From positions 1 to 31,077 of the IMG/VR virus record IMGVR_UViG_3300030012_001168: a stretch of DNA of 31,077 bases. The stretch is one strand, 5' to 3'. Within the stretch, counting starts at the first letter, position 1. Every line of letters begins with the position of its first letter. Origin of the DNA: a virus. Position numbers and translations under genes: made by a program. A model generated the notes under the pieces. The model had not been told where the DNA came from. It searched no databases and saw only the letters and a list, made by a program, of their open reading frames with translations. This document shows, in pieces, positions 12,825 to 31,077 of this stretch.

Positions 12825-15800
12825 ATGGGATACCCTATTGTTTTTACAAAGAATGCTGCTGTAATAGTAGAGTCTGGAAGTGTATACGCTGTTAATATTG
12901 ATACTGGGGTTACTGAATTTATAGGTAATACTGGGCTATCTGACGCTAGGGATTTACATCATTACGAAGGCGGAAGATGGTATTTCCTTGACAGGAGTGC
13001 TATTTACGTTTGGAATGAAAGCTCAGGCCCTTTAACTCCAGCAAACGTAATCCTTCTATTTAATGTAAAAATGCCTGACCCTCAAGGGCTTACATATGAT
13101 TATAATCTTCAAAGATTTGTAATTTCTTCAAACAATCAGCTTTATTATTATACCATAAATGGGGCTCCTGTTAACGTGGTCACAGACCAAGATGATGATG
13201 CAAACCAGCAGTTCAATAGTACTGGAGGTATAACTCCTTATTATCCTTCTAATGATGGTGATAGTTTTGAAACTTATTATGCTACAGGAAAATCGTTTGG
13301 TAACATAACGGATAGTTTAGTAAGAATCAGTGCATTAACTATTCCGACCAACCAAGCTGAAGAGGATAGTCAGTTTAATGTGTATAAACAAACAATACAA
13401 CACACCACAAACATACTTCCTCCTAACACTAGCATACATGCTATAACAAATTATTACAGGTCTATACAAGACTCTCATCAGTTGTATGTTTTTTGGAATA
13501 AAGCAAATCAAGATACATTTACTGCTCCTCCAACTAATCAATATTTTTCTCGTGTAGATATAAATACAGGGATAGCTTCAAGTTCTTTGGCTCTCAATCC
13601 AGCTATCAAAGACGCTGTAATTAGAGGTGCTACCATGATAAGTGAAAGACCTATACTTGGTTGTACCGACCCTGATGCTAATAATTATAATCCAAACGCT
13701 ACTGTAGATGATGGTTCTTGTGACTTCTCATCTGATGATGGAGGAACTGACCCAGTAGACCCGGTAGACCCAGTAGATACAGACCCATCAGACTGCAAGT
13801 CTCTTTTAATACTAAACACCGGTTGGGATTTTGATAAAAGCAGACCTATGAGAAATGGTCAGACTGATTCCAAATGGATGAAGGTAAAGTATGGTTCTGC
13901 GGCTAATAAAAATGCTGGGCACAATAGTCATGAGTATCACTCTCCTTATAAGAATATGGATAGTTTTGAGGATAAAACTGTAGATATTATGGGTGGTGCT
14001 GTTCATAGATGGCATGAGGAAAATTCTTGGACTACTCCTTACAGCACAACGGATGTAGCTGTTCCTTACATAAATAGTAATAATATTGTTTTTGAACCAG
14101 GAGGAGCTAACCCAAATCCAAATATAGATAGGTTAAAAAACATAAACCCTTTCTGTAATACTGGTTTGGGTTATCACAGTTGGTATGACAACAGGTGGTT
14201 TAATTATGTTCATGGTCAGGATGGAGGCTCTCCATCTTCCCCATTATCATTCCCATTCCCCATGGACAACTTTGAGCCTTGTGAAGCTAAAATTATAATA
14301 AGGATAACAGAAGGAACCCCAGCGGGTTCTGGACAGGCAAGTAAATATAGGGTTGGAGTTAGAGATGCTAATGGAGAAGACCACTTTTTTACTCATGAAA
14401 GTTTTAATTTACATGAGAGAATTTGCAATACATCTGTAGATTTAAGTACTGAACATTATAATGCTTTAAACGGTCTATTCACCATGATGGGTATTGTAGA
14501 CCTTGACCATGAAAACGCACAATACTCTGGAGATTTTTCAGTTACATCTTCAAAACATACATTTGGCTCTACAGGCCCTACTAGCAAGTTCGGTCATGTT
14601 ATTAGACCAACATTCTCTAGTATAGACGGACACCACACCGGAGACACATGGGTTATATCCGTCACAAAAGGATACTTGGGAGGTAAGAATAGACCAAAAT
14701 CCCCTAGTACAAGTGTAGGGCCAGGCCCTTTTACTCATTGTTCTGATAACTATGATTTTTTCTTAAGTTATCCGGCTACCAGAGATTATCCCTTTAACAT
14801 AGGTACAGATAGTGGTGGTTATAGTTTCGCTTATCTACCAGAAAAAAGGCCAACTGTGTCTCATATTGGAAGGATAAGAATACAAAACACTTATCTTGTT
14901 TGGGGTTACGCTTGTGGTCAATATAAAGGTGATTCTGTAACAATAAACAGTAAGAATGATGTGATGAGAAGGCTTGAAGATATTTACGAGGACTTTGAGC
15001 ATGAGCACAGTTTTATTTTTAGAAACGCTCCAGCTGAGTTTGCGTTGCCAGAAGGGGGTGAAGCGGTTCTTGGTGTATTTACAGATTGGAACGGAAACGC
15101 TATACAAAATGATTACGGTTACTTTCTTCCAAATATGTATACTGGGACTGGAATAAATTACCAGTTTACTCATTTAGATGGAATATACAGACCTTTTCCT
15201 AATGATTTCTTCATGTCTGGTGGGAAAATAAATCCCGCAAAAGACCCATTGTTTCATCAGACATACGGAAACTACGAAACAAGACAAATCAATTGTCCTC
15301 CAGGGTATAAATCAGATATTAATAGAGGTAGACCTGATTATTACGAGGCTACTGGTCAAACTTCTTTTTTACCTCACACTCCACCGGGATTTGGTATTAA
15401 GCAAGATGACAATGTCCATTGTGCCTTCCCGCACTCTATGGTTGTCGGGCCTTTAAATAGCTTTATACTTGGAGGTCAAACTAGTGCTAGCCACCTAACC
15501 GTTAATGGAGGTAAAGCTCAAATGAATGATGACCCTACACTTTTAAGGCATAAGGTGCGTGCAGATGGTCAATATGATAAATTTCCTGTTATTCCAAATG
15601 AAATAGAAGCTGGCACATCTGTTCCTGGAACAAATAGTGTTGCTGGTATAGAGCGTGCAATATACGGAAGGTCTTATAGAAGAAAAGCTTTAGATTACGA
15701 AAGAAAGTTTAAGATACCTGAAGGAGCTACCAATGTTACAGCTAAGTTGGTTTTCTCATCCTATGACAATGTAATGTTATTCTTGAATAAAGCTGGAAAT

Positions 15801-16883
15801 GTAAACCTACCAGTAATTACAACTCATCAAGCACCTTGGTATCCAGATAAATATTATTACACGTGTGAATTATCAAATAATCAATCTATGGATGCTGTTA
15901 TGATAGGAAGCACCTGTTATATGGAGGGTAGTGGAGATTATATAGTAAATCCAGCTAACCTATTTAAACACCCCGAAACAAACAGGGTTATAGGAAGAAA
16001 TTACCCGTTGTATGAGGACTTTGCTGTAGACCCTTATTACGATGCAACAAACAATACTGTCTTAGACCACCCAACAATGTGGGATACATATCAGGGTGAA
16101 CAAAGTAATACAGACACTCCAAGTACTCATAGTCTAGTGTACTGGTCTAAAGGAGGTTTCACAAATCTAGCTATGGCTGATATGCAATTAGCTCACTGGT
16201 CTGCGTGTAAAAACCACAGATATGAACCTATTCGGAATGTATCTAAAATAAGTCCCGACCCTTTTAGAGGTGGTAATAGATGGAGAGATTTCAAAGCAAA
16301 CGGATTTGGTCATAAAACTATCTCCGGTACTATAGCTACAAAACCAATTAGCGATATTTTAGAGGGGGTTGGACTAGGAGGAATCAGGCAGCATAAAAAC
16401 TTTATGGCTGTGGAGATAGGTGCTGGAGGAAAGTTTAAAGTTTTCTTAGATGGATATTATAAGTCTAACGGAGACCCTAAGTTTGTTTATTACACAGGGA
16501 ATGTAACTGGATGGGGTGATGCTGGAGAGTATTTATTAAGAGCTAGAAACACTCAAACATCTTACGGCCCCAGAAACAGATGGGCTGAATTACATCCCTC
16601 TTTTTATACTAATGCATTTGAAACCAAACATATGCATTTAGATAGTGGAAACTTGTTTGATACAAATATGGGGGCTGGATTTGTTGTTAAAGGCTATGTT
16701 GAATATGACTGTGCAAATGCAAGAGGTGAAATAACCAGGATAGATGGAGAGCCTTTATTCTATAGTAAGCAAGAGGCTTTAGATAGAGCTAAAAAATTGG
16801 GTTGTGTAGGTTATCATACTCATAGATATGAAAACGTTATAGGATATATGGCTTGTCAAAGTCACTCAATAGCCACTAAATAG
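12825..16883 (+). CDS. Tail-fibre/receptor-binding-like virion protein, 1352 aa
   Basis: The N-terminal 270 residues look like a beta-propeller or beta-sandwich (VNIDTGVTEFIGNTG, MPDPQGLTYDY). Residue 279 starts one GCTDPDANNYNPNA..DDGSC module, known from Bacteroidetes secreted proteins. An acidic DPVDPVDPVDT linker (about 309-319) follows, then about 1000 aromatic, Gly- and Asn-rich residues with no match I can name. The last 60 residues have SKQEALDRAKKLGCVGYHTH and GYMACQSHS, a small Cys/His domain resembling one at the end of cyanophage structural proteins. There is no signal peptide, as expected for a virion part. Host recognition is inferred. Confidence 0.7.
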   Translation: MGYPIVFTKNAAVIVESGSVYAVNIDTGVTEFIGNTGLSDARDLHHYEGGRWYFLDRSAIYVWNESSGPLTPANVILLFNVKMPDPQGLTYDYNLQRFVISSNNQLYYYTINGAPVNVVTDQDDDANQQFNSTGGITPYYPSNDGDSFETYYATGKSFGNITDSLVRISALTIPTNQAEEDSQFNVYKQTIQHTTNILPPNTSIHAITNYYRSIQDSHQLYVFWNKANQDTFTAPPTNQYFSRVDINTGIASSSLALNPAIKDAVIRGATMISERPILGCTDPDANNYNPNATVDDGSCDFSSDDGGTDPVDPVDPVDTDPSDCKSLLILNTGWDFDKSRPMRNGQTDSKWMKVKYGSAANKNAGHNSHEYHSPYKNMDSFEDKTVDIMGGAVHRWHEENSWTTPYSTTDVAVPYINSNNIVFEPGGANPNPNIDRLKNINPFCNTGLGYHSWYDNRWFNYVHGQDGGSPSSPLSFPFPMDNFEPCEAKIIIRITEGTPAGSGQASKYRVGVRDANGEDHFFTHESFNLHERICNTSVDLSTEHYNALNGLFTMMGIVDLDHENAQYSGDFSVTSSKHTFGSTGPTSKFGHVIRPTFSSIDGHHTGDTWVISVTKGYLGGKNRPKSPSTSVGPGPFTHCSDNYDFFLSYPATRDYPFNIGTDSGGYSFAYLPEKRPTVSHIGRIRIQNTYLVWGYACGQYKGDSVTINSKNDVMRRLEDIYEDFEHEHSFIFRNAPAEFALPEGGEAVLGVFTDWNGNAIQNDYGYFLPNMYTGTGINYQFTHLDGIYRPFPNDFFMSGGKINPAKDPLFHQTYGNYETRQINCPPGYKSDINRGRPDYYEATGQTSFLPHTPPGFGIKQDDNVHCAFPHSMVVGPLNSFILGGQTSASHLTVNGGKAQMNDDPTLLRHKVRADGQYDKFPVIPNEIEAGTSVPGTNSVAGIERAIYGRSYRRKALDYERKFKIPEGATNVTAKLVFSSYDNVMLFLNKAGNVNLPVITTHQAPWYPDKYYYTCELSNNQSMDAVMIGSTCYMEGSGDYIVNPANLFKHPETNRVIGRNYPLYEDFAVDPYYDATNNTVLDHPTMWDTYQGEQSNTDTPSTHSLVYWSKGGFTNLAMADMQLAHWSACKNHRYEPIRNVSKISPDPFRGGNRWRDFKANGFGHKTISGTIATKPISDILEGVGLGGIRQHKNFMAVEIGAGGKFKVFLDGYYKSNGDPKFVYYTGNVTGWGDAGEYLLRARNTQTSYGPRNRWAELHPSFYTNAFETKHMHLDSGNLFDTNMGAGFVVKGYVEYDCANARGEITRIDGEPLFYSKQEALDRAKKLGCVGYHTHRYENVIGYMACQSHSIATK
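13749..13775 (+). repeat. Three 9-base tandem repeats (DPV linker)
   Basis: GACCCAGTA, GACCCGGTA and GACCCAGTA follow one another and encode DPVDPVDPV between the GCxD module and the main body of the fibre protein. Being in frame, a change in copy number would alter linker length only. Confidence 0.75.
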
Positions 16884-18780: not shown

Positions 18781-19260
18781 TTAGCTATGTATGTTCTTAT
18801 CGTCAATCCCTATTGATTTACACCATTTCACAGTATCGAAAGAAGGACATGCTTTTGATGCGAATTGATTATGTCCAGCAATCTTAATGTCTGGATGTCT
18901 CTTAACCATATACTTAACATAAACCTCCAGGGTATCTTTTTGCTCTGGAGTTCTTGTATCTTTAGCATATGTGTTTTCCTCATCAACTCCACCAACGTAC
19001 ACCACATGTCTTGATACAGCGTTGATTCCTCTTACACCATTAGTGACTTCCCATCCTTCAACTATCCCGTCTTGATTGAATGGAGTGAGGTTTTCTAAAC
19101 CCCCGTCAAGATGTATCATATCAGAATATCCAACTTGTCTCCAACCTCTACCTTCTGGCTTTGGAGCAGTATGCCACTTTCTGATTGTATCAGAAGATAT
19201 GTTTCTACCCTCTGGCGTTGCTGTACAATGTATTACTAAGTATTCTAATTTTCTTCCCAT
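18781..19260 (-). CDS. N-acetylmuramoyl-L-alanine amidase (T7-lysozyme-type endolysin)
   Basis: The 159-residue protein is an Amidase_2 domain that cuts the bond between muramic acid and the stem peptide. Zinc ligands are His11 (VIHCTAT), His130 (AGHN) and Cys138 (KACPSF); Tyr45 and Lys136 sit where T7 lysozyme has its catalytic Tyr46 and Lys128, and the His-to-Cys spacing of 8 equals that of T7. It has no signal peptide, so it needs a holin for release. It is the last gene of the leftward operon and overlaps the holin candidate by TAATG. Confidence 0.9.
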   Translation of the reverse strand: MGRKLEYLVIHCTATPEGRNISSDTIRKWHTAPKPEGRGWRQVGYSDMIHLDGGLENLTPFNQDGIVEGWEVTNGVRGINAVSRHVVYVGGVDEENTYAKDTRTPEQKDTLEVYVKYMVKRHPDIKIAGHNQFASKACPSFDTVKWCKSIGIDDKNIHS

Positions 19261-19670
19261 TATTTCTTTGCAAATTTTTCTAAGCCAGCTATACCAAAAC
19301 TACCAAGAACGATGATAGTGAATGAATCGTATATAAACTCTTTAACAACTAAATCTTTCCCAAGTGTTCCTGTAACTAGGTCTACAATCATAACTAGAAC
19401 CATAACCATCAAAGCAATGAATCCAACAATAGTTTTTTCATTCCATTCGTTATCATTTCTAAATATATTAAAGAAAGATTTTTCTAACGACTCACATTTA
19501 CATATGTCGTTAGGGCACTCACTAGCTCCTTTACAGCAACCGCAAGATTTTTCTTCGCAAGTTGGTAATAGGTTTTTATTTGCTTTTATCTGTTCTTCGC
19601 TCATATTTCTTGTGTAATCGTAATAATACTTTGATTTTTCTCTACCAAATGATGTCATTGGATTTTTCAT
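19260..19670 (-). CDS. Two-helix membrane protein with a Cys-rich domain, holin candidate
   Basis: Two hydrophobic segments are visible, TIVGFIALMVMVLVMIVDLV (about residues 79-98) and the stretch ending FTIIVLGSFGIAGL (about 116-131). They are preceded by a soluble N-terminal part with seven cysteines between residues about 38 and 59 (CEEKSCGCCKG...CPNDICKC). The location directly upstream of the endolysin, with TAATG coupling, argues for a holin. The Cys cluster is unusual for one and could bind metal or form disulfides. A gene-local membrane protein of unknown role is the alternative. Confidence 0.65.
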   Translation of the reverse strand: MKNPMTSFGREKSKYYYDYTRNMSEEQIKANKNLLPTCEEKSCGCCKGASECPNDICKCESLEKSFFNIFRNDNEWNEKTIVGFIALMVMVLVMIVDLVTGTLGKDLVVKEFIYDSFTIIVLGSFGIAGLEKFAKK

Positions 19671-21505
19671 TCTATAATTATTTTTGTAGTTAAATTTAAG
19701 TTTTCGTTTGAGATATTAATTAAGTACATTCCTTTATCAAGTTTTACTGTACTTGTTTTATCTTCTAATACCAACTTGCCAAGCATGTTGTATATTTTTA
19801 TATTAAATTCAGATGTAAAGTTTACTACACCTGTCGATGGATTTGGATAAGGCAGCATACCAATTCTATCAAACATTGCTATATTTGTTGGGCCTGTCCA
19901 TCCATCTTGACAATAGTTGTATAAATCATAACAAGGAGAATCCCATGAATCATCGCAACAATACGGGTCTACACTAATCACCCACTCAAAGCATGCATTA
20001 GGAATGAAGTATGGTACATCTGCATCACAATCTGAATTGTAGTAACAACTACTATCAGGTATATTAGCTAATGGCTCAAAGTTTACAGCAGTAACATCCA
20101 TACATCCAGGGAATGGATATATACAAGTCTCATTATCTGTGTTAGCTAATGGATTATAGTTCATAGCTGTAGTATCCATACACCCATAAATAACATCAAT
20201 ACAACTACCATTATCAGTATTGCAAGTGTCGCAGTAATTAAAAGCTGTAGGGTCTATACAACCAAATATTAGTGGTATACAACTACCGTCATCTACATTT
20301 GCATTTATATTATAGTTAAATGCATCATCATCCATACATCCTTCTACGACAGCAATACAAGAGTTAGGTAACTCAGCATTAGCCAATGGGTCGTAATTAA
20401 ATGCAGTTGAGTCCATACATCCGTATACAACCACCGTAGCACAGCTACCATCGTCATAGTCATAAGACGCATCGTACTCCAAATAAAGTGGATTAGTACA
20501 CCCTGGATTATAATAACAAGTGCCGTCATCTGTATTTATTGTATCGTTATAATTTACCGCCAAGCTGTCTATACAGCCGTATGTTCTTTCTATACAATTA
20601 TTACCACAGTATGGTATACCGTAGTTTATTTGAAATGGTACAAGTGGATTAGCAAATCCTCCTGGTTCATGTATTGTTATATCTTCATCAGAATATAGGC
20701 TGTAACCACATTGTACAGCTGTAAAGTCTGATTGTTGTGTTATATTAAACTTAATTCCTACAGGTTCTGATATACTCAACTCGAAAGTAAATGTAGTATC
20801 AAAGCCATCATCTAAAGTAAATATACCTAAAAAGTTGTCACCTTGAAATACCTGTAAATAAGAACCAGCCCAGCCGTTTCCAGCCAAGTCGGTTAGCATT
20901 AAATTATATGTACAACTATCAGTAAGTATATTTGTGTTCGCAGAATCTACATAATTAAAAGCTGTAGAGTCAGTACATCCAAACACTTTAGGAGTGTAAC
21001 ACATACCTGTATCTACAGTTGCTATTGGTAAAAACTCTACGAAATCCGGATTCATACATCCATAAATGGGTGGAGGTGGAGCACAATCTTCTATTGTAAA
21101 ACCTTCATAAGCATAAAAACCAAAGTCAGCTGTATCTGAAGCTACAATAGTATCATTACAACGAATTATATAATATGAGCCATCATTACCACCCCATAAG
21201 CTACCAGCCATACCATCACCGTAAGTATCGTATATTTCAAATGTATAATCGCCATTAGGTATACACAGCTGTGTGTTTTGTGGACTGTAGTCTACTATAT
21301 CAGTATACGGCCCACCTGTAATCAAAGTGTCTCCATTTTCCTCTAAAATAGCCCAAGATGTCTCCTGTGGGTATTGGTCAGGAACAATTAATATATCTAC
21401 ATATGTTCCGTTAGGACATTGTCCAAATGCTTTGGTAGAAACTAAAATAAGTGATAATACATATATCACAAATAAAGTTTTAAATATGTAAGCTATTACT
21501 TTCAT
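19667..21505 (-). CDS. Secreted repeat protein with a type IX secretion sorting domain
   Basis: This 612-residue protein begins with a signal peptide (hydrophobic FVIYVLSLILV, ending near residue 29). Two beta domains typical of Bacteroidetes secreted proteins follow, one with PDQYPQETSW and YDTYGDGMAGS. Nine modules starting GC(M/T/I)(D/N) and ending in a Cys span residues about 148-490, most of the form GCMDSTAFNYDP..N..DDGSC. Then come CCDDSWDSPCYDLY (about 510-525) and a C-terminal domain (about 550-612) with YPNPSTG, IKIYNMLGKLVLE and LDKGMYLINIS, the layout of a T9SS type A sorting signal. It would be exported by the host Sec system and placed on the cell surface by the host T9SS. It is tightly embedded in the phage lysis operon. 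Confidence 0.85.
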   Translation of the reverse strand: MKVIAYIFKTLFVIYVLSLILVSTKAFGQCPNGTYVDILIVPDQYPQETSWAILEENGDTLITGGPYTDIVDYSPQNTQLCIPNGDYTFEIYDTYGDGMAGSLWGGNDGSYYIIRCNDTIVASDTADFGFYAYEGFTIEDCAPPPPIYGCMNPDFVEFLPIATVDTGMCYTPKVFGCTDSTAFNYVDSANTNILTDSCTYNLMLTDLAGNGWAGSYLQVFQGDNFLGIFTLDDGFDTTFTFELSISEPVGIKFNITQQSDFTAVQCGYSLYSDEDITIHEPGGFANPLVPFQINYGIPYCGNNCIERTYGCIDSLAVNYNDTINTDDGTCYYNPGCTNPLYLEYDASYDYDDGSCATVVVYGCMDSTAFNYDPLANAELPNSCIAVVEGCMDDDAFNYNINANVDDGSCIPLIFGCIDPTAFNYCDTCNTDNGSCIDVIYGCMDTTAMNYNPLANTDNETCIYPFPGCMDVTAVNFEPLANIPDSSCYYNSDCDADVPYFIPNACFEWVISVDPYCCDDSWDSPCYDLYNYCQDGWTGPTNIAMFDRIGMLPYPNPSTGVVNFTSEFNIKIYNMLGKLVLEDKTSTVKLDKGMYLINISNENLNLTTKIIIE

Positions 21506-21858
21506 TAGAATTTACTCATTATTAGTTCATCAATATAATCTTGTACTTCTCTTCTTGTAGCAGACATCTTGAAACTTAAATCTGCTTGAAATCGTTTTAC
21601 TTCTTCTCCATCATCAAAGATGATAATAGTTGGCACTACTGCTATACTATATTTCTTTTGATTATCATTACCATCAATACTTTTTATTTCTTTGTCGCAA
21701 TCTCCTAACTTCTCAAACCATTCTACATCATTTGCTGAGTTAAATCCAGCATTAAAGTGCATTGCTGTCACTTGAGAAGAAGCAGTATGCGAGACTACCA
21801 AGAAAAATAATACTAATAAGTATATGCAAAGCAACTTCCATTCTACAGATATTTTCAT
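21505..21858 (-). CDS. Secreted thioredoxin-fold protein lacking the CxxC cysteines
   Basis: A signal peptide (LLCIYLLVLFFLVV, ending near residue 29) precedes a thioredoxin-like domain. HFNAGFNSAND aligns with F.A.WC..C, with Trp replaced by Phe39 and both cysteines by Asn40 and Asn43. VVPTIIIFDDGEEVKRF carries the cis-Pro (Pro76) and final strands. It therefore cannot be a thiol oxidoreductase and more likely binds a partner in the periplasm. The only mature Cys is Cys54. I recall similar proteins in other Bacteroidetes phages. It overlaps both neighbouring genes by TAATG. Confidence 0.75.
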   Translation of the reverse strand: MKISVEWKLLCIYLLVLFFLVVSHTASSQVTAMHFNAGFNSANDVEWFEKLGDCDKEIKSIDGNDNQKKYSIAVVPTIIIFDDGEEVKRFQADLSFKMSATRREVQDYIDELIMSKF

Positions 21859-22136
21859 TACTTATAAAGTTTATCCTCAATTTTTTCAAGAGTAACTTTA
21901 ATCTCTTGAACATCTTCTTGAGTGTTCATAATAGTTTGACGAATAAGTTGGTCTTTCATATCATACTCTATCCTAGTTATCTCAGGGTCTGGAGCTACTG
22001 GTAATTCTTTTGCCTCAGCTATCTCTCCTTTCAGTGTAAACCACATTCCAGTCATACTGACTAATACTACACCTAATGATATAATTGTTTCTAAGCTTAA
22101 TTTAATCTTTGTGTCTTTGCTTATTTCTTGTGCCAT
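21858..22136 (-). CDS. Membrane protein with C-terminal coiled coil, 92 aa
   Basis: After a charged N-terminus (MAQEISKDTKIKLS) there is one hydrophobic segment, TIISLGVVLVSMTGMWFTL (residues about 17-35), then a Pro-rich turn (LPVAPDPE) and a coiled coil to the end (VQEIKVTLEKIEDKL). The topology fits a holin of the one-helix type, a spanin or an adaptor for the lysis system; the lysis operon context supports such a role. Start follows the upstream stop by 2 bases. Confidence 0.65.
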   Translation of the reverse strand: MAQEISKDTKIKLSLETIISLGVVLVSMTGMWFTLKGEIAEAKELPVAPDPEITRIEYDMKDQLIRQTIMNTQEDVQEIKVTLEKIEDKLYK

Positions 22137-22138
22137 GT

Positions 22139-23170
22139 CTAAAATATAACGTAGTTAATACCAACTTTGAAGTCGTACCACTCTTTGTTCCAGTATTTAT
22201 TGTACTTACCTTCTATAAAGCATCCTAAGTGTTTAGTCGCTTTTAATCCAAATATCAATCCTCCTGAGTAGTCATACCATTGTTCTCCATCGTTAAAGTT
22301 GTGAAATGAATATTGTCCACCATCATCATAGTGATAAGGCATTAGGTTACCCCAGGAATGTAACCAGAAGTTTTTAGTGTAGTGGTAAAAGTCAAAACCA
22401 ACTACCAACGAGTATTGCCATTGATTAGCCAACTCATTTCTTTTTCTTTCAACATAATCTTCTAACACTTGAGGCATAACAAGCTCGTTCCATACCTCAG
22501 CACTAGTAGCTACAATAGAACCGTCTGGTGCTCTATACTCAGATTCATATACATCTATGCTGTAGCCTTCTTCTATAGCTAAACATGTGTAATGTATTCT
22601 ATCATTATCAAACGACCATTCCTCTAGTGGGTCGTAACCGTATGGTTCTGCTAACCTCTGTACAGCACCCACGTTGAACGATAACTTCTTGTTACCATTC
22701 AAACGTAGTCTCTGCGTACTTTCAAAGTACTCTATATCTGCAAAACCATCAACTATATATTCTATTTTGGATAACCATTTTGGCTTGACATATCGCACAA
22801 AATGATGTTGGTCGAAGTATTCTATACCTTCTTGTCTCTTGTATTGTACCTGAAACAGGTATTCAAAGGGATTTCTACCTACACTAGCCGCATCGCTAAA
22901 TGAAGACTCTGTACCATCTTTAAACGGTGCAAAACCTTCATATTGAAATCTTTGTATCTTACGAATACCTATAGATAGAGAATAATCATAAGGAGTGAAT
23001 ATAGTATCATATACTAATGTGCTACCGTCTACAGAGTAAATCTCTTTATCAGATAGTGACGTACCACCATTAGCTGCCACGTAGAATGTAGAAAACTTTA
23101 TAGCTTTTTTGAATTGTGCGTTTGCTACACTACAAACAAACAATAATATGATTATTAATCTATAGACCAT
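22139..23170 (-). CDS. Secreted outer-membrane-barrel-like protein, 343 aa
   Basis: A signal peptide (MVYRLIIILLFVCSVANA, cleaved before QFKK) is followed by alternating polar/hydrophobic segments rich in Tyr, Trp and Phe (FSTFYVAANGG, YSLSIGIRKIQRF, LVVGFDFYHYTK, GGLIFGLKATKHLG). The chain ends WYDFKVGINYVIF, a final aromatic strand with terminal Phe like the signal read by the BAM complex. I infer an outer-membrane beta-barrel. I recall close relatives in marine Bacteroidetes phage genomes, so it is probably a phage function, for example receptor masking or lysis. It overlaps the LamG gene by 11 bases. Confidence 0.65.
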   Translation of the reverse strand: MVYRLIIILLFVCSVANAQFKKAIKFSTFYVAANGGTSLSDKEIYSVDGSTLVYDTIFTPYDYSLSIGIRKIQRFQYEGFAPFKDGTESSFSDAASVGRNPFEYLFQVQYKRQEGIEYFDQHHFVRYVKPKWLSKIEYIVDGFADIEYFESTQRLRLNGNKKLSFNVGAVQRLAEPYGYDPLEEWSFDNDRIHYTCLAIEEGYSIDVYESEYRAPDGSIVATSAEVWNELVMPQVLEDYVERKRNELANQWQYSLVVGFDFYHYTKNFWLHSWGNLMPYHYDDGGQYSFHNFNDGEQWYDYSGGLIFGLKATKHLGCFIEGKYNKYWNKEWYDFKVGINYVIF

Positions 23171-24681: not shown

Positions 24682-27600
24682 CTATTCCTTAAAGAACTTT
24701 TTAGTCCTTTCTGTACCTTTTGTAGGCCCTTCAACGTCTAATCCACCTAGTGGAGCAATACCATATCTACTTAAATACTCTACATCCTTATTAAATGGTA
24801 TAGAAGTACCTTGTGTTAATAGTAGGGCTCTTTGTAGGTTTACAAGCATATCAAACAGTGCAGCAGCCTCTCTACCCTCTGGGTCAGTGAAAGATTTACT
24901 ACCATCTGTGGCCTCTTTGTAATTTCTTATAGCTTCTGCATTATCCATCACAATCTCTATGGCATTATAGTACATAGGAGCAGCAGCTCTAATAACCTCT
25001 GTTTTAGGGCCGTAACCCTCAAGATTTAAAGGTTCTGCATAGTATGCAATCTTAGTAAATTCAGATATTAAATCATCCATTTCTTCATCACCAGTAAGGC
25101 CTTGTAAAGCTCCAGCTGTTAGTAACATTAAGTTTCTACCTACCTGAGAATATTTACTAGTCAATAAGAATGTTGCGTTGGCAGCTGATGTTTTTATTAT
25201 ACCTTCAGTAGAAAATAACTCTCTTCTTTTCTTATCAACCTCAGATAACATTTGAGCTCTTTTAGTAGTGTTAGGCTCTGACTCAGCCACCAATTGTTGA
25301 TACATCAGGAACTCTAATGAGGTTCCTATACCGTAAGCTACACCACCAGCAAATTGTGCTGATACTTGTTTTAGAGAATTTGCTTTTTCAGTTGGAGTGT
25401 TTCCAAAATAAATATTTCTAGCAGACCTACCGAAGTTTAAAGATTCCAAAGCACCAAAGTTAGACATGTATGTTACTATTGGGCCTAGTGTTCTGTTATT
25501 AACATCAACTGAACCAAAAGGAAGTTTTATCTGGCTACGACCACCACCTTTTAGCGTAGTGTTTTTCCATTTTACAGCCTCTCTGTCCGCTATGGCAGCA
25601 GCATCAAATATTTCTTTTTCAAACTGCTTTCTATAAGAAGGGTTTTGTCTATATTCTTTTCTATTGAAAGATGCTCCAGTAATCTCCTTAAATTGAGTTT
25701 GGAATGTAGGCATCCAAGCTAAGTAAACAGTAGCTCTATCAGGAGCACTTATTAGAAAGTCATTAAGTGTTTTCAAAGCACCGTTTCTGTAAAGGCCAGA
25801 TAACACATCGTACTCACCATTAATACTATGCTTGTTGAACTTCAACCTAAACTGGCTGTTTGTAAAATTCATTAAGTCGTTAGCTGTCTTGTCTTGTCTA
25901 CCAAACTTAATTTTACCATCTTCAAACCTAGTACCAACAATACGCTCCAGGTTTTCTTTAAACTGATTTATAATGACATTTGGTGTTTCAGGAGTACTAG
26001 CACCTACACCTACCCTTAAATACTCCACTCCCGTCTCCACAGCTAGCCTACCAGGCCTATTTAGAGCTGCTGCATAAGCTGCTCCAGACAATCTCTGAGT
26101 GAGAGCCGGCATAAAAGATTGCTGGTATCCAGAAACATCAAACTGAACTCCTAAAGATTGTTGCATTCTTTCTTTATAGGCATCTAAATATTTACCAACA
26201 TTCAGATTAGTTTGGTCTGTTGGGTTCTCTTGTTGTATACCTTTAAACTCATTTTGAGCATTAGCTATAATCTGGAAAGATTCTCTAACAGTTGGGGTCA
26301 TGTGGAAATCCCTATTAGTTTGAACCACACTTCTCATAAGTAAAGACTCTATATTAAACTCTACAGCAGAAGGCTCTATTGTTGTTCTTTCTTTACCAAC
26401 TCCAGCAGCAAGTCCAGTCTTACCTTTACCTTGTGCTATCTGCTCTACAAAATCTATACTCTTAAAGTCCTCAATACCTACTTTACCAAATCTCATTAAA
26501 GGAACGTATGATTCAAAATCTTGAAACTCTTTACCTCTGTATTCGTTAACAAATCTCTGCTTATCTCTTAGATTACCCTCAAACTGACTTCTTACATAGT
26601 CATATATTTCTTTTTCTTTTTTACTAAGACCTTTGTAAGCTTCGCTCCAGTCAATCATTTCTTTGCCGTCTACAGTCTTTTTAGGCAACTTATTGTAAGC
26701 TTCTTGAAGTCTTTTAGCATCTCCAGTACCGTAATCGTTTGTATTCTCTCTTATAGCTCTATCTACAAAACTACCATTACCACCGTTAACTTCATACTGT
26801 TTTTCCAGCATAATCATGCCCAACTTTTCCATAGTTTCATTCAGCTGCTTTCTTCTAAGCATTGGAGAACTAGGAGAAAATAGTCTAGCTAACGTACCAC
26901 TAGAAGTAATCTTGTTCCATTCCTGAACAACTGTGTTTATGTCAGCTTTAGCACTAGTCATGCTTCTAGTTATTGGAGTGATAACAACCTCATCTAATGT
27001 TCTTCCTGTTTTTTCAGCATTAGCTTTTCCTGTCAAGAAAGACAATGGCATAAACTCCATATCTCTTAATAACAAGTCAGCACCTTTTTTGGTGTCTGAT
27101 TTTTGAGCTAGACTTGGCTTAGACTCTAAACCTAATCTTATCTGTCTGTATAATGGGTTGCCATGTTTAAAACCCATAGATTCTTTAGACAATTCTCCTA
27201 ACCTCTTGGTTGGGAAGTATCCATTAGCCGCATCTATACCTGATATTAATATATCTTCAGCATAACCTATTTTATCTATATACTCTGAGTTTATTACTTT
27301 TTCTAGTAAAGCTTTTTGTTGCGAAGTATAGTTAGGGTATGATTCAAAGTTATTTAAAACCTCTCTCATATACTCTATTCCTTCACTATAAGAAGCTTTT
27401 GTAAACTCGCCTCTTTTACTCAATAACTCTTCAGAAGCTACCTCTATCTTATCACTAAGCTCGTTGTATACTTTTGACTCTATTATACCAGCATCTAAAG
27501 CTTCGTTTAATTTTTGTTGAGCTCTTCTTATACGTAATGCAGCTGAACTATAACTTCTAACTTCACTACCTGTAAGACTACCAGCTTCAAACTCAAAACC

Positions 27601-30600
27601 TTCTACTTTAGATAATTGCTCTTTGACTAAAGACTCAACCTGTTCTACAGTAGTTACAGCATCAGTCTGTGATTTTATTTTATCTGCCTCTTTTTTAGCT
27701 CTATATTCAGAAACAAGCTTATTGGCATTTTCAATAATTGACTTCATTTCTGATTGGCTAGACTTACCAGCTACAGCACCCACCCTTGGTCTTGCTAACT
27801 GCTCCATAGCTAACTTAACATCGTTTAGTAGTTTCATACCAGTCTGACCTTCAGCTGTACCCATAGTGGTTTCTATCTCCTTGAAGTTTATATCTAAAAG
27901 GTCATTAACCAACGCTTTTGTTTTTACATCTCCAAACTCACCAGACTGCAACTTAGACCTTACACTTCTTTTTAGAGAGTTAATGTCTTCGTTGATATTC
28001 TTTACATCATTTCTATAGTTTAGCTTTTCAATCTCTTGTACAAAGTTTTCTAAACCTTTTTCATTCTTGACATTACTAGCTTTCTTTAGTAAGTTCTTTG
28101 TTATAGGGCCTGAAAAATTAGTTTCGTTAATTACTTCAGTAAGATTATTTCTAACCTCTTTTATCTTGTTAGCTTTTTCTCTTGTACCTTCTTTTAACAA
28201 GTCTATCTTTCCTTGATATTCTGAACGAATCTGCTTGATTCTTTCATTAAACTTCTTTCTAGTTTTTTGCTTTTCAGATAGAGGCTTGTATTCTTTTTGA
28301 GATTGCTCTAAGAAAGAGTTTCTATACTCAATAGCTTTATCATATCCAGTCTCGCCCTTAAAAGTTTTTTCTTTTATATCCAACTTCTTTAAAGGGTCAT
28401 ATATCATGGTTACAATGTCAGGAGTACCATGTTTTTCTTTATTATATCCTTCAGGTGCGTATTGTTCGTTAAATGGCGTTCTAGAAACAACTCTAAAGCC
28501 GTTTTTCTCATATATCTTAGTTAGGTATCCATCGTAGTTGTCAAGCGTTCTACCGCCCTCTTCTACAGCTTTCTGTATAATCTTATCACCTACTCCTTTT
28601 TCTTTGGAGTCTGGCTTTTTAAATACGCCCTTTATGTCACCTTCTTTAGTAACAACACCATAACCTCCATCTACTTCTATAAGCTTACTTCCTTTTAAGT
28701 CTTTAGAGTCTACTTTATCTACAGACCAGTAGTCTTCTGGTTTTTCAGATTTTGCTTTATCTAATTCTTGAGTAAACGTTTCTTTTTTATTAGACAGTTT
28801 TACTTCTGGTTTCGCACCAATCTCCTTAATAATATCTGGAGTAAGAGCTATAATACTACGGTCAGGCTTACCACCTTTAGCTACCTCACCTGTATTTAAA
28901 TAGTTTATAGAATCAAACCCTTTATCTAATAACAACTTTCTTATACCAGCTGGGCTTGGGTCTTTTTGTAATTCTTTCTGTGTAACTATTTTATTATCTA
29001 ATAGGTAATCTCCAAACCAGTCAGACTCTATACCTAACTCTTTGTTTTGTTCTTTTTCTCTTAGATATGCATTAGGGTCTTCTTTAAATCTTTTTTCAGC
29101 TGCTTCATTACCTTCCCATACAAAATCTCTTTCTACTTTCAAAGAGTTTTTAGGTTCTAGATTATATTCAAAAATATTTCCGTCTTTCGTGCCTTTCTTT
29201 TCGTTTCTAACTTCAGCTTGTTGCTTGTTAACACCAAAGTGCATACCCATACCCTTTTCAAACCTACTCATGCTAGAGCTTATTACAGGCTTATCCTTAG
29301 AGCCATGGAAGTATTTTTTAGACTCCCCTTCTATTGGAGCTTCTTCAGTCTTGACTTCTGGAGCTTCTTCCTTAACTTCTTTTTCAACAGTAGGCTCTTT
29401 AACCTCAACAGCTCTTTCCTTACCCATTACCTCAGAATAAACGGAATCTAACTCTTTACCTGATGTATTGTTAAGTCTTTCAAGTTCAGCTTTTTGCTCA
29501 GTAGTCATTTCTTTACCTTCTTTCTGCATGCGTAAATATTGACCGTATAATGCTGGGTCACCACTTCTCATTTCAGAAGGTTTATCCATAGGCATGAAGG
29601 CTTCAGCTTCAGCTATCTTGTTTTTATTTATTTCTGTAGCTTTTGAAGATGCTTCGTTAGCCATCTCCATTACTTTGTTTCTGACTTCTGGAGCTACATT
29701 GGTTACGCCTTTTTCAAATATCTCTACTAAGTGAGACTCTGTGATACCGTTCTTTTCTAGTAAGGTGTTGAAGTCACTAACGCTTTCTCTTTTTAGATTT
29801 ATCATTGACTCAAAAGCAAAACCTTGTGAAGAAGCTTCTATAAATTGCTTCTCTGCTTTTAAAGCTTCTGACTTTGACTCAAATATTTCGGTATAAAGCT
29901 TTTCACCTTTATTGTTTAGTATGTCAACAGTGTACTCGATTTTACCACTCTTAGGATTTACCATTGAGTTCATCTTGACATCTTTTGGAACTGTAGTAAA
30001 GTAAGCATCTACATCTATATCTCCAGTCTTACTATTTGTAACATTAGCTACACTATTAAAGAATGCATAGTTTAGCTTCTGCTTTAAATATATGTCTACG
30101 TTTTTGCTATTTAAAGTTTTGATAAGATTATCTGGGGATAAAGCTAAAGACTCAAAAATCTTATCTGGAGATGAGTTAACTTCTAAATCTAACTCTCTAA
30201 TTATTTGTTTCCTTTCAGATTCACTAAACTTTCCAAACGCATCGTATCTTGATTCTGGTTTTGGTGCGTAAAGACTTCTGTGGTTCTTTATGTTTTCAGC
30301 TGTTTTTAATATTTTATGAGGAGCGTTTCTTATACCGTGAGTTAATTTAAGACCACCTAGAAATTTACCTGTTTCTACAAAATCCTGAAATTTTATATCT
30401 GTTCCGTGTAATACAGAGCTACCCAGTGTAAATGCAGAAACTTCAGCTCCAAACTCTACAGGCTTTGCAAACCATTCAGCGTACTTAGGTATACCTCTTT
30501 GAGACATTTGATTGTACATCCTACCAAAACCATATCCTACGTTAGAAACTCCAAAACCTAAAATAAATCCCTTTCCACCAGATTTTAGTGATTGAACATA

Positions 30601-31077
30601 ATCTACTTCAGCCCACTCTCCAGCAGATATTTTTTGTCTAAATACATCTTGACCAGCATCAAATGTTGCAAAACTAGTAGCTCCAGGAACAGTTGTAGCA
30701 ACATACTTATAACCTTTTTGGTTCATTTTAGCCGCACTATACAACTTATAAGCTCTTGTTGCTTCTGCTGTAGTATATCCAGCAGCTTCTAATTTAGCAG
30801 CACCTCTAACTGTGTTTTTCCAAGAATTGTTTATTATAAACCTACCTCCATAATTAACAGCAGCTTTACCAAGAGCACCACCAGCCATAAATAATGGGTC
30901 AAACACAAAAGAACCTACGTCTGTCCAAAAACCTTCTGACTCTGAAGGATTATACCCGTAAGTACTAAACAACTTTCTATCAGTAAGAGCTGTGTAAGCT
31001 AAACCCAAAGAGTTTTTATTTACAGATTCTTTCACAAAATACTCCAAGCTATTATCAACTTGTCCTTTTGGATATTT
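24682..31077 (-). CDS. Giant polyvalent (injected) virion protein, 5' end outside the window
   Basis: The frame is open from the window edge (KYPKGQVDNS...) to TAG, 2131 residues; the TTG at 31047 is not a convincing start. Counting from there: N-terminal hydrophobic/Gly-rich helices (about 25-250). An ADP-ribosyltransferase-like segment starts YFHGSKDKP (about 578) and goes on with MGMHFG and RSIIALTPD. A GNAT-like segment (about 770-885) has KGVGDKIIQKA and LTKIYEKNGFRVVSR. Charged coiled coils follow (885-1260). An LPD38-like C-terminal region (about 1320-2000) contains LNDFLISAPDRATVYLAW. These modules define polyvalent proteins injected with phage DNA to counter host defences. The chain ends FFKE. 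Confidence 0.75.
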   Translation of the reverse strand, partial: KYPKGQVDNSLEYFVKESVNKNSLGLAYTALTDRKLFSTYGYNPSESEGFWTDVGSFVFDPLFMAGGALGKAAVNYGGRFIINNSWKNTVRGAAKLEAAGYTTAEATRAYKLYSAAKMNQKGYKYVATTVPGATSFATFDAGQDVFRQKISAGEWAEVDYVQSLKSGGKGFILGFGVSNVGYGFGRMYNQMSQRGIPKYAEWFAKPVEFGAEVSAFTLGSSVLHGTDIKFQDFVETGKFLGGLKLTHGIRNAPHKILKTAENIKNHRSLYAPKPESRYDAFGKFSESERKQIIRELDLEVNSSPDKIFESLALSPDNLIKTLNSKNVDIYLKQKLNYAFFNSVANVTNSKTGDIDVDAYFTTVPKDVKMNSMVNPKSGKIEYTVDILNNKGEKLYTEIFESKSEALKAEKQFIEASSQGFAFESMINLKRESVSDFNTLLEKNGITESHLVEIFEKGVTNVAPEVRNKVMEMANEASSKATEINKNKIAEAEAFMPMDKPSEMRSGDPALYGQYLRMQKEGKEMTTEQKAELERLNNTSGKELDSVYSEVMGKERAVEVKEPTVEKEVKEEAPEVKTEEAPIEGESKKYFHGSKDKPVISSSMSRFEKGMGMHFGVNKQQAEVRNEKKGTKDGNIFEYNLEPKNSLKVERDFVWEGNEAAEKRFKEDPNAYLREKEQNKELGIESDWFGDYLLDNKIVTQKELQKDPSPAGIRKLLLDKGFDSINYLNTGEVAKGGKPDRSIIALTPDIIKEIGAKPEVKLSNKKETFTQELDKAKSEKPEDYWSVDKVDSKDLKGSKLIEVDGGYGVVTKEGDIKGVFKKPDSKEKGVGDKIIQKAVEEGGRTLDNYDGYLTKIYEKNGFRVVSRTPFNEQYAPEGYNKEKHGTPDIVTMIYDPLKKLDIKEKTFKGETGYDKAIEYRNSFLEQSQKEYKPLSEKQKTRKKFNERIKQIRSEYQGKIDLLKEGTREKANKIKEVRNNLTEVINETNFSGPITKNLLKKASNVKNEKGLENFVQEIEKLNYRNDVKNINEDINSLKRSVRSKLQSGEFGDVKTKALVNDLLDINFKEIETTMGTAEGQTGMKLLNDVKLAMEQLARPRVGAVAGKSSQSEMKSIIENANKLVSEYRAKKEADKIKSQTDAVTTVEQVESLVKEQLSKVEGFEFEAGSLTGSEVRSYSSAALRIRRAQQKLNEALDAGIIESKVYNELSDKIEVASEELLSKRGEFTKASYSEGIEYMREVLNNFESYPNYTSQQKALLEKVINSEYIDKIGYAEDILISGIDAANGYFPTKRLGELSKESMGFKHGNPLYRQIRLGLESKPSLAQKSDTKKGADLLLRDMEFMPLSFLTGKANAEKTGRTLDEVVITPITRSMTSAKADINTVVQEWNKITSSGTLARLFSPSSPMLRRKQLNETMEKLGMIMLEKQYEVNGGNGSFVDRAIRENTNDYGTGDAKRLQEAYNKLPKKTVDGKEMIDWSEAYKGLSKKEKEIYDYVRSQFEGNLRDKQRFVNEYRGKEFQDFESYVPLMRFGKVGIEDFKSIDFVEQIAQGKGKTGLAAGVGKERTTIEPSAVEFNIESLLMRSVVQTNRDFHMTPTVRESFQIIANAQNEFKGIQQENPTDQTNLNVGKYLDAYKERMQQSLGVQFDVSGYQQSFMPALTQRLSGAAYAAALNRPGRLAVETGVEYLRVGVGASTPETPNVIINQFKENLERIVGTRFEDGKIKFGRQDKTANDLMNFTNSQFRLKFNKHSINGEYDVLSGLYRNGALKTLNDFLISAPDRATVYLAWMPTFQTQFKEITGASFNRKEYRQNPSYRKQFEKEIFDAAAIADREAVKWKNTTLKGGGRSQIKLPFGSVDVNNRTLGPIVTYMSNFGALESLNFGRSARNIYFGNTPTEKANSLKQVSAQFAGGVAYGIGTSLEFLMYQQLVAESEPNTTKRAQMLSEVDKKRRELFSTEGIIKTSAANATFLLTSKYSQVGRNLMLLTAGALQGLTGDEEMDDLISEFTKIAYYAEPLNLEGYGPKTEVIRAAAPMYYNAIEIVMDNAEAIRNYKEATDGSKSFTDPEGREAAALFDMLVNLQRALLLTQGTSIPFNKDVEYLSRYGIAPLGGLDVEGPTKGTERTKKFFKE

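Follow-up and report, generated by a model that had tools for sequence, protein, structure and literature searches.

Does the gene at 19667-21505 encode a protein that the host would carry to its own surface through the T9SS, and does it belong to the phage programme? The window, that is, the whole stretch of 31,077 nucleotides that was analysed, covers positions 1 to 31,077 of IMG/VR record IMGVR_UViG_3300030012_001168, probably a virus of marine Bacteroidota, and the cargo gene lies on its minus strand. A preliminary description, made from the sequence alone, had claimed for the product a signal peptide, nine GCxD modules, two further modules typical of Bacteroidetes surface proteins, and a type A sorting domain. 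All of these held, with the repeat now written GCx[D/N] and the body modules found in Flavobacteriales proteins. The features of the gene are as follows.

19667..21505, minus strand: T9SS cargo protein of 612 aa (P0001), intact ORF from ATG to TGA
21422..21505, minus strand: signal peptide (residues 1-28), predicted by a rule-based check, not SignalP, to be cleaved before Gln29
21083..21418, minus strand: module 1, residues 30-141, beta-rich "DQYPxETSW ... YGDG" domain common to Flavobacteriales proteins
20606..20911, minus strand: module 2, residues 199-300, "LTDLAGNGWAGS" beta-rich domain
20036..20593, minus strand: main GCx[D/N] repeat array, residues 305-490, holding seven of the nine modules
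19886..20035, minus strand: C-WV-D-YCC-WD-C-Y-C module, residues 491-540
19670..19849, minus strand: T9SS type A sorting domain, residues 553-612, by profile and fold

The cargo tail is a T9SS type A sorting domain by both profile and fold. It sits at the extreme C-terminus (residues 553-612 of 612). These last 60 residues, for which the preliminary description had proposed a TIGR04183 search, scored 41.1 bits against that profile (E 1.3e-10, cut-off 23) and 41.8 bits against PF18962 (E 1.3e-10, cut-off 27). The profile of the cargo family matched T9SS tails of known structure in the PDB, namely 8glk_D, 8glj_D and those of gingipains. Structure prediction, also proposed earlier, supported the claim: the AF2 model (pLDDT 74.9, tail about 67-86) was closest in the PDB to 8glk_D, which is the tail of NucA bound in a T9SS complex (E 8e-4, TM by target 0.69). 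At the other end, the signal peptide reads MKVIAYIFKTLFVIYVLSLILVSTKAFG, with an A-F-G end followed by Gln, and the Gln after the cleavage site agrees with the Bacteroidetes Q-rule (PMC10653852). The Sec signal peptide expected of T9SS type A cargo is therefore present, as judged by the rule-based check only. The two GC-x-[D/N] modules outside the main array begin at residues 149 and 176. NucA and the gingipains, which are type A cargo, share the same sorting domain by profile and fold, whereas the window cargo is phage-borne and its body is non-enzymatic.

The genes on either side of the cargo gene are listed below.

18781..19260, minus strand: N-acetylmuramoyl-L-alanine amidase endolysin (phrog_822, E 4e-47)
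19260..19670, minus strand: holin candidate of 136 aa, homologous to small TM proteins adjoining the cassette in relatives
21505..21858, minus strand: secreted thioredoxin-fold protein of 117 aa, cassette member, with CxxC replaced by NxxN
21858..22136, minus strand: 92-aa protein with one predicted TM and a coiled-coil-like tail, cassette member
22139..23170, minus strand: exported 343-aa protein, predicted outer-membrane beta-barrel, cassette member

The junction of the cargo gene with the thioredoxin-fold gene is TAATG, a 1-base overlap, and that with the holin candidate is ATGA, a 4-base overlap, both as described earlier. In the window, the holin candidate and then the amidase directly follow the cargo gene, and a virion-type gene, the LamG-like phrog_10356, lies near it. 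The window also encodes a phage-family primase-helicase, exonuclease VIII, SSB, a metallophosphoesterase and the amidase. Two large ORFs were observed elsewhere. The first (12825-16883, plus strand) is a 1352-aa phage ORF in which a single GCxD module occurs; its C-terminus bears a GYHTH...GYM..SHS motif that recurs in small ORFs close to the cassette of relatives, and the ORF matched no family. The second (24682-31077, minus strand) is a giant ORF of 2131 aa, truncated by the contig end, with a minor-capsid-like domain at residues ~730-1033.

The 58 contigs that encode cargo relatives in an IMG/VR scan (37-73% identity, mostly full length) mostly carry a common set of four genes: an outer-membrane beta-barrel, a single-TM coiled-coil protein, a secreted thioredoxin-fold protein and the T9SS cargo. 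Among the 83 non-identical loci with all four genes, these lay on one strand in every case and in this order in 71. A barrel-seeded scan of IMG/VR gave at least 600 stretches. When 79 new loci from that scan were put together with the 58 cargo loci, some of them from the same contigs, 104 loci had an ORF ending in a T9SS tail; the others were cut by contig ends or bore a shorter tail type. The few loci without any cargo (L148, L155, L156, L179, L212) had little DNA remaining beside the barrel. The genes downstream of the cassette varied among relatives, with DUF5675 in 55/92 loci and a GTA-type holin in 38/92. The conserved partners of the cargo are the three upstream genes, not the lysis genes. 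The earlier placement of the gene "inside the lysis operon" was thus partly right: it is true for this contig, but what most relatives keep next to the cargo gene are the genes for the barrel, the coiled-coil protein and the thioredoxin-fold protein. The claim that the gene is part of the phage programme rather than a loose insertion held, since the cassette is conserved in dozens of phage contigs. The body modules showed dN/dS of 0.10-0.13, indicating purifying selection. Conservation of the cargo gene, its linkage to the cassette and purifying selection on it are all shown by these data.

The thioredoxin-fold protein matched 2vim_A by profile (E 1.2e-6) and its PT (cis-Pro motif) is invariant, so the fold proposed earlier is upheld. 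The CxxC active site expected of a thioredoxin is absent and NxxN stands instead, in 28/28 aligned members and in 79/83 by pattern; therefore, no thiol exchange is possible at that site. Compared with thioredoxin, the match is at the level of fold, and the cassette protein differs in being exported and in having NxxN for the Cys pair. Both active-site cysteines have become asparagines, and the C-terminal Phe is invariant. The topology of the 92-aa protein (one hydrophobic stretch and a coiled-coil-like tail) was read from its sequence without a prediction tool. It may be spanin-like or holin-like, and this is unproven.

The 343-aa protein has the features expected of an outer-membrane barrel: a signal peptide, amphipathic strands that close into a barrel, and a C-terminal aromatic residue, which was Phe in 70/82. 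Its AF2 model was of moderate confidence only (pLDDT 70.7, pTM 0.65). The best Foldseek match was the NanC porin (E 1e-6), and the porin-like matches had low TM. A PorV- or PorP-like identity was rejected, with no profile match, no PDB sequence match and no specific fold match. The leader of the barrel varies by phage, being a type I signal peptide in some and carrying a lipobox in others.

The sorting tails of the cargo are exchanged, always for another T9SS tail. TIGR04183 was matched by 33/42 cargo relatives, and 31 of 40 phage records were above its cut-off, nearly always with a single such match within the record. Among 80 full-length relatives, 69 had a PNP-type tail and 11 a shorter "DLLGR...FYIYxDG" tail, and no loss of the tail was found. 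Cargo pairs with 87-93% identical bodies can have tails that are ~32% identical, which is the level of distant pairs. At the DNA level, the tail and the sequence downstream drop to alignment background where the body is still ~86% identical. Clustering at 60% identity split the 69 PNP-type tails into 23 groups, seven of which were represented within a single body cluster of 18. Unswapped tails were under purifying selection (dN/dS 0.17). The shorter ending, carried by L045, L046, L050, L052, L053, L060, L203, L207, L208, L214 and L215, also occurs on secreted Flavobacteriales proteins of other architectures; it is possibly a short T9SS signal that TIGR04183 misses. Signal peptides were likewise common to the cargo, thioredoxin-fold and barrel genes, with 28 cross-gene pairs against 0 in shuffles, a control that is a weak null. 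The window cargo leader and the L166 barrel leader share 81% identity.

The cassette moves between phage lineages. The terminases of cassette-bearing records were found with a crAss-type terminase query; a terminase_6N search was uninformative. Compared with G008, the records of L021, L013 and L003 had terminases only 24-28% identical, against 75-88% for barrels and 78-89% for coiled-coil proteins. Record G008 (L010 / L216-L218) carries the cassette with an RIIA-like gene, a crAss-type terminase and a crAss-type major capsid protein; its terminase and capsid are ~29-42% identical to those of gut crAss-like phages. The window is a partial phage genome, which bears on placing it relative to crAss-like phages. 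Its giant ORF matched non-crAss minor capsid proteins of unrelated phages and had no match in 40 cassette-bearing records, an empty answer that shows little without a positive control.

The homologue search proposed in the preliminary description gave many phage contigs with relatives, and host genomes that share modules only. Large proteins of Flavobacteriales contain the body modules as well. Of 16 genomes that share modules, 14 had SprA, among them two MAGs that hold cassette contigs, and only two had the barrel, on contigs with the whole cassette. Full cassettes in bacterial genomes were found only on L061, L062 and L112; these contigs, which lie in MAG bins, are likely to be phage. A host chromosomal origin of the whole cargo gene was rejected, bacterial genomes sharing only its modules. 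The host is probably a marine member of the Bacteroidota, and within it probably of the Flavobacteriales; this is inferred from the shared modules and the two MAG bins, not from CRISPR or isolation. No tyrosine integrase was found in 32 records, which may be partial, and this suggests lytic phages; a temperate lifestyle was rejected on the same ground. In isolate phages, the barrel and the thioredoxin-fold protein were not found, and the cargo was related only to S-CAM3 and one marine virus, through the GCxD repeats; in cyanophage S-CAM3, the module occurs in a virion protein. A search with the tail only gave three uncultured phage records, all weak.

How would such a protein work? The cargo would be made as part of the late minus-strand phage programme; late expression is inferred because the cassette is co-oriented with virion and lysis genes. 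The host Sec system would export the large modular Cys-rich cargo, and the host T9SS would then carry it across the outer membrane; both steps are inferred from the presence of the signal peptide and the sorting tail. Normally, a type A tail is removed by cleavage and the rest of the protein either stays on the surface or is released. We consider secretion of the cargo by the host T9SS very likely. It is a strong inference, as is the use of host Sec and T9SS claimed in the preliminary description, and has not been demonstrated, there being no expression or localisation data. Taken together, export through the host T9SS and membership of a mobile four-gene envelope cassette are likely, in the absence of host-infection data. 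The putative envelope cassette would comprise an outer-membrane beta-barrel, an inner-membrane coiled-coil protein, a redox-dead periplasmic thioredoxin-fold protein and a surface T9SS cargo.

The roles suggested earlier (superinfection exclusion, receptor masking, aggregation, release aid) remain inferences only. We favour, tentatively, a role in which the cargo together with the barrel alters the surface of infected cells and debris and blocks adsorption of progeny or competing phages. On balance, even this reading is less likely than not. Late expression suits superinfection exclusion less than early expression would. No PADLOC match to a defence or anti-defence family was obtained, which says little. 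T5 Llp is a small lipoprotein and a receptor-blocking superinfection exclusion protein. By analogy only, without an assay, it resembles the proposed outcome in that a phage protein at the outer membrane or surface stops adsorption; the window system differs in using a T9SS-delivered surface protein and a barrel. Late surface modification is ranked above a release module and then adhesion, all of them inferred with no assay.

The first alternative, which remains possible, is that the cassette serves to disrupt the envelope and release progeny: acting beside holin and endolysin, the barrel, the coiled-coil protein and the exported proteins would weaken or open the outer membrane in place of spanins, and the cargo would help to detach progeny from the surface. 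In its favour, genes directed at every envelope layer cluster together, the holin and amidase come next in the window, and holin-like or DUF5675 genes come next in many relatives. However, the cargo resembles adhesin-type surface proteins and not enzymes, the adjoining lysis genes vary where the cassette does not, and no spanin profile was matched. The second alternative, which we consider unlikely, is that the cargo is an adhesin that binds infected cells or debris to one another, to nearby hosts or to particles, giving progeny more encounters. A multi-module Cys-rich architecture is indeed common to large Flavobacteriales surface proteins, and a GCxD module is present in the 1352-aa phage ORF (12825-16883) as well, but the cargo has no known binding partner and no carbohydrate-binding profile was matched. 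It is very unlikely that the cargo is a virion component whose tail is a relic or unused for secretion. The gene adjoins virion-type genes (the LamG-like phrog_10356) and shares its module with the S-CAM3 virion protein; against this, signal peptide and sorting tail occur together, tails are under purifying selection and swapped only for other tails, and neighbouring gene products are exported too. Misassembly of host DNA onto a phage contig, for which only the host-like cargo modules speak and which the preliminary description had named as a possible refutation, is all but excluded, as relatives occur on 58 contigs mostly with the same surrounding cassette and the window junctions overlap by 1 and 4 bases, and a host-phage chimera was rejected on this conserved synteny in many independent phage contigs.

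The cassette and its cargo can be set beside known systems. Phage-encoded T9SS cargo is already known from Cryophage and crAss-BACON. In Cryophage, it was described as a unique occurrence (PMC7468147). The Cryophage cargo likewise has T9SS type A tails, and its export is presumed to use the host T9SS. It comprises three proteins of a single phage, an endoglucanase, a GH39 protein and one with PA14, all encoded in variable islands (PMC7468147), whereas the cassette studied here has a single, non-enzymatic cargo family as a fixed member of its four genes in many phages. In crAss-BACON cluster 2, Bacteroidetes phages have T9SS sorting domains close to their head genes, one of them in a BACON ORF (PMC6949934), but our analysis found no body domain in common and that study reported no cassette. 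The conserved cassette, the NxxN thioredoxin-fold partner and the tail shuffling have not previously been reported in the open-access literature searched, with subscription papers and preprints outside the search.

In a bolder reading, which we put forward as a conjecture with rather less than even support, a mobile "surface kit" would have a part in every layer of the Bacteroidota envelope, from the inner membrane through the periplasm and outer membrane to the cell surface, the last reached via the host T9SS. It would pass as a unit between unrelated phages and adapt to new hosts by swapping export and sorting signals while the bodies are kept. The natural tail swaps on near-identical bodies are a ready set for studying T9SS cargo recognition across hosts. 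Phage T9SS cargo, once an oddity, is here conserved, widespread and mobile in marine Bacteroidota phages, and is tied to three envelope proteins of no known function. The cassette makes phage use of a Bacteroidota-specific secretion machine for changing the host surface a testable proposition.
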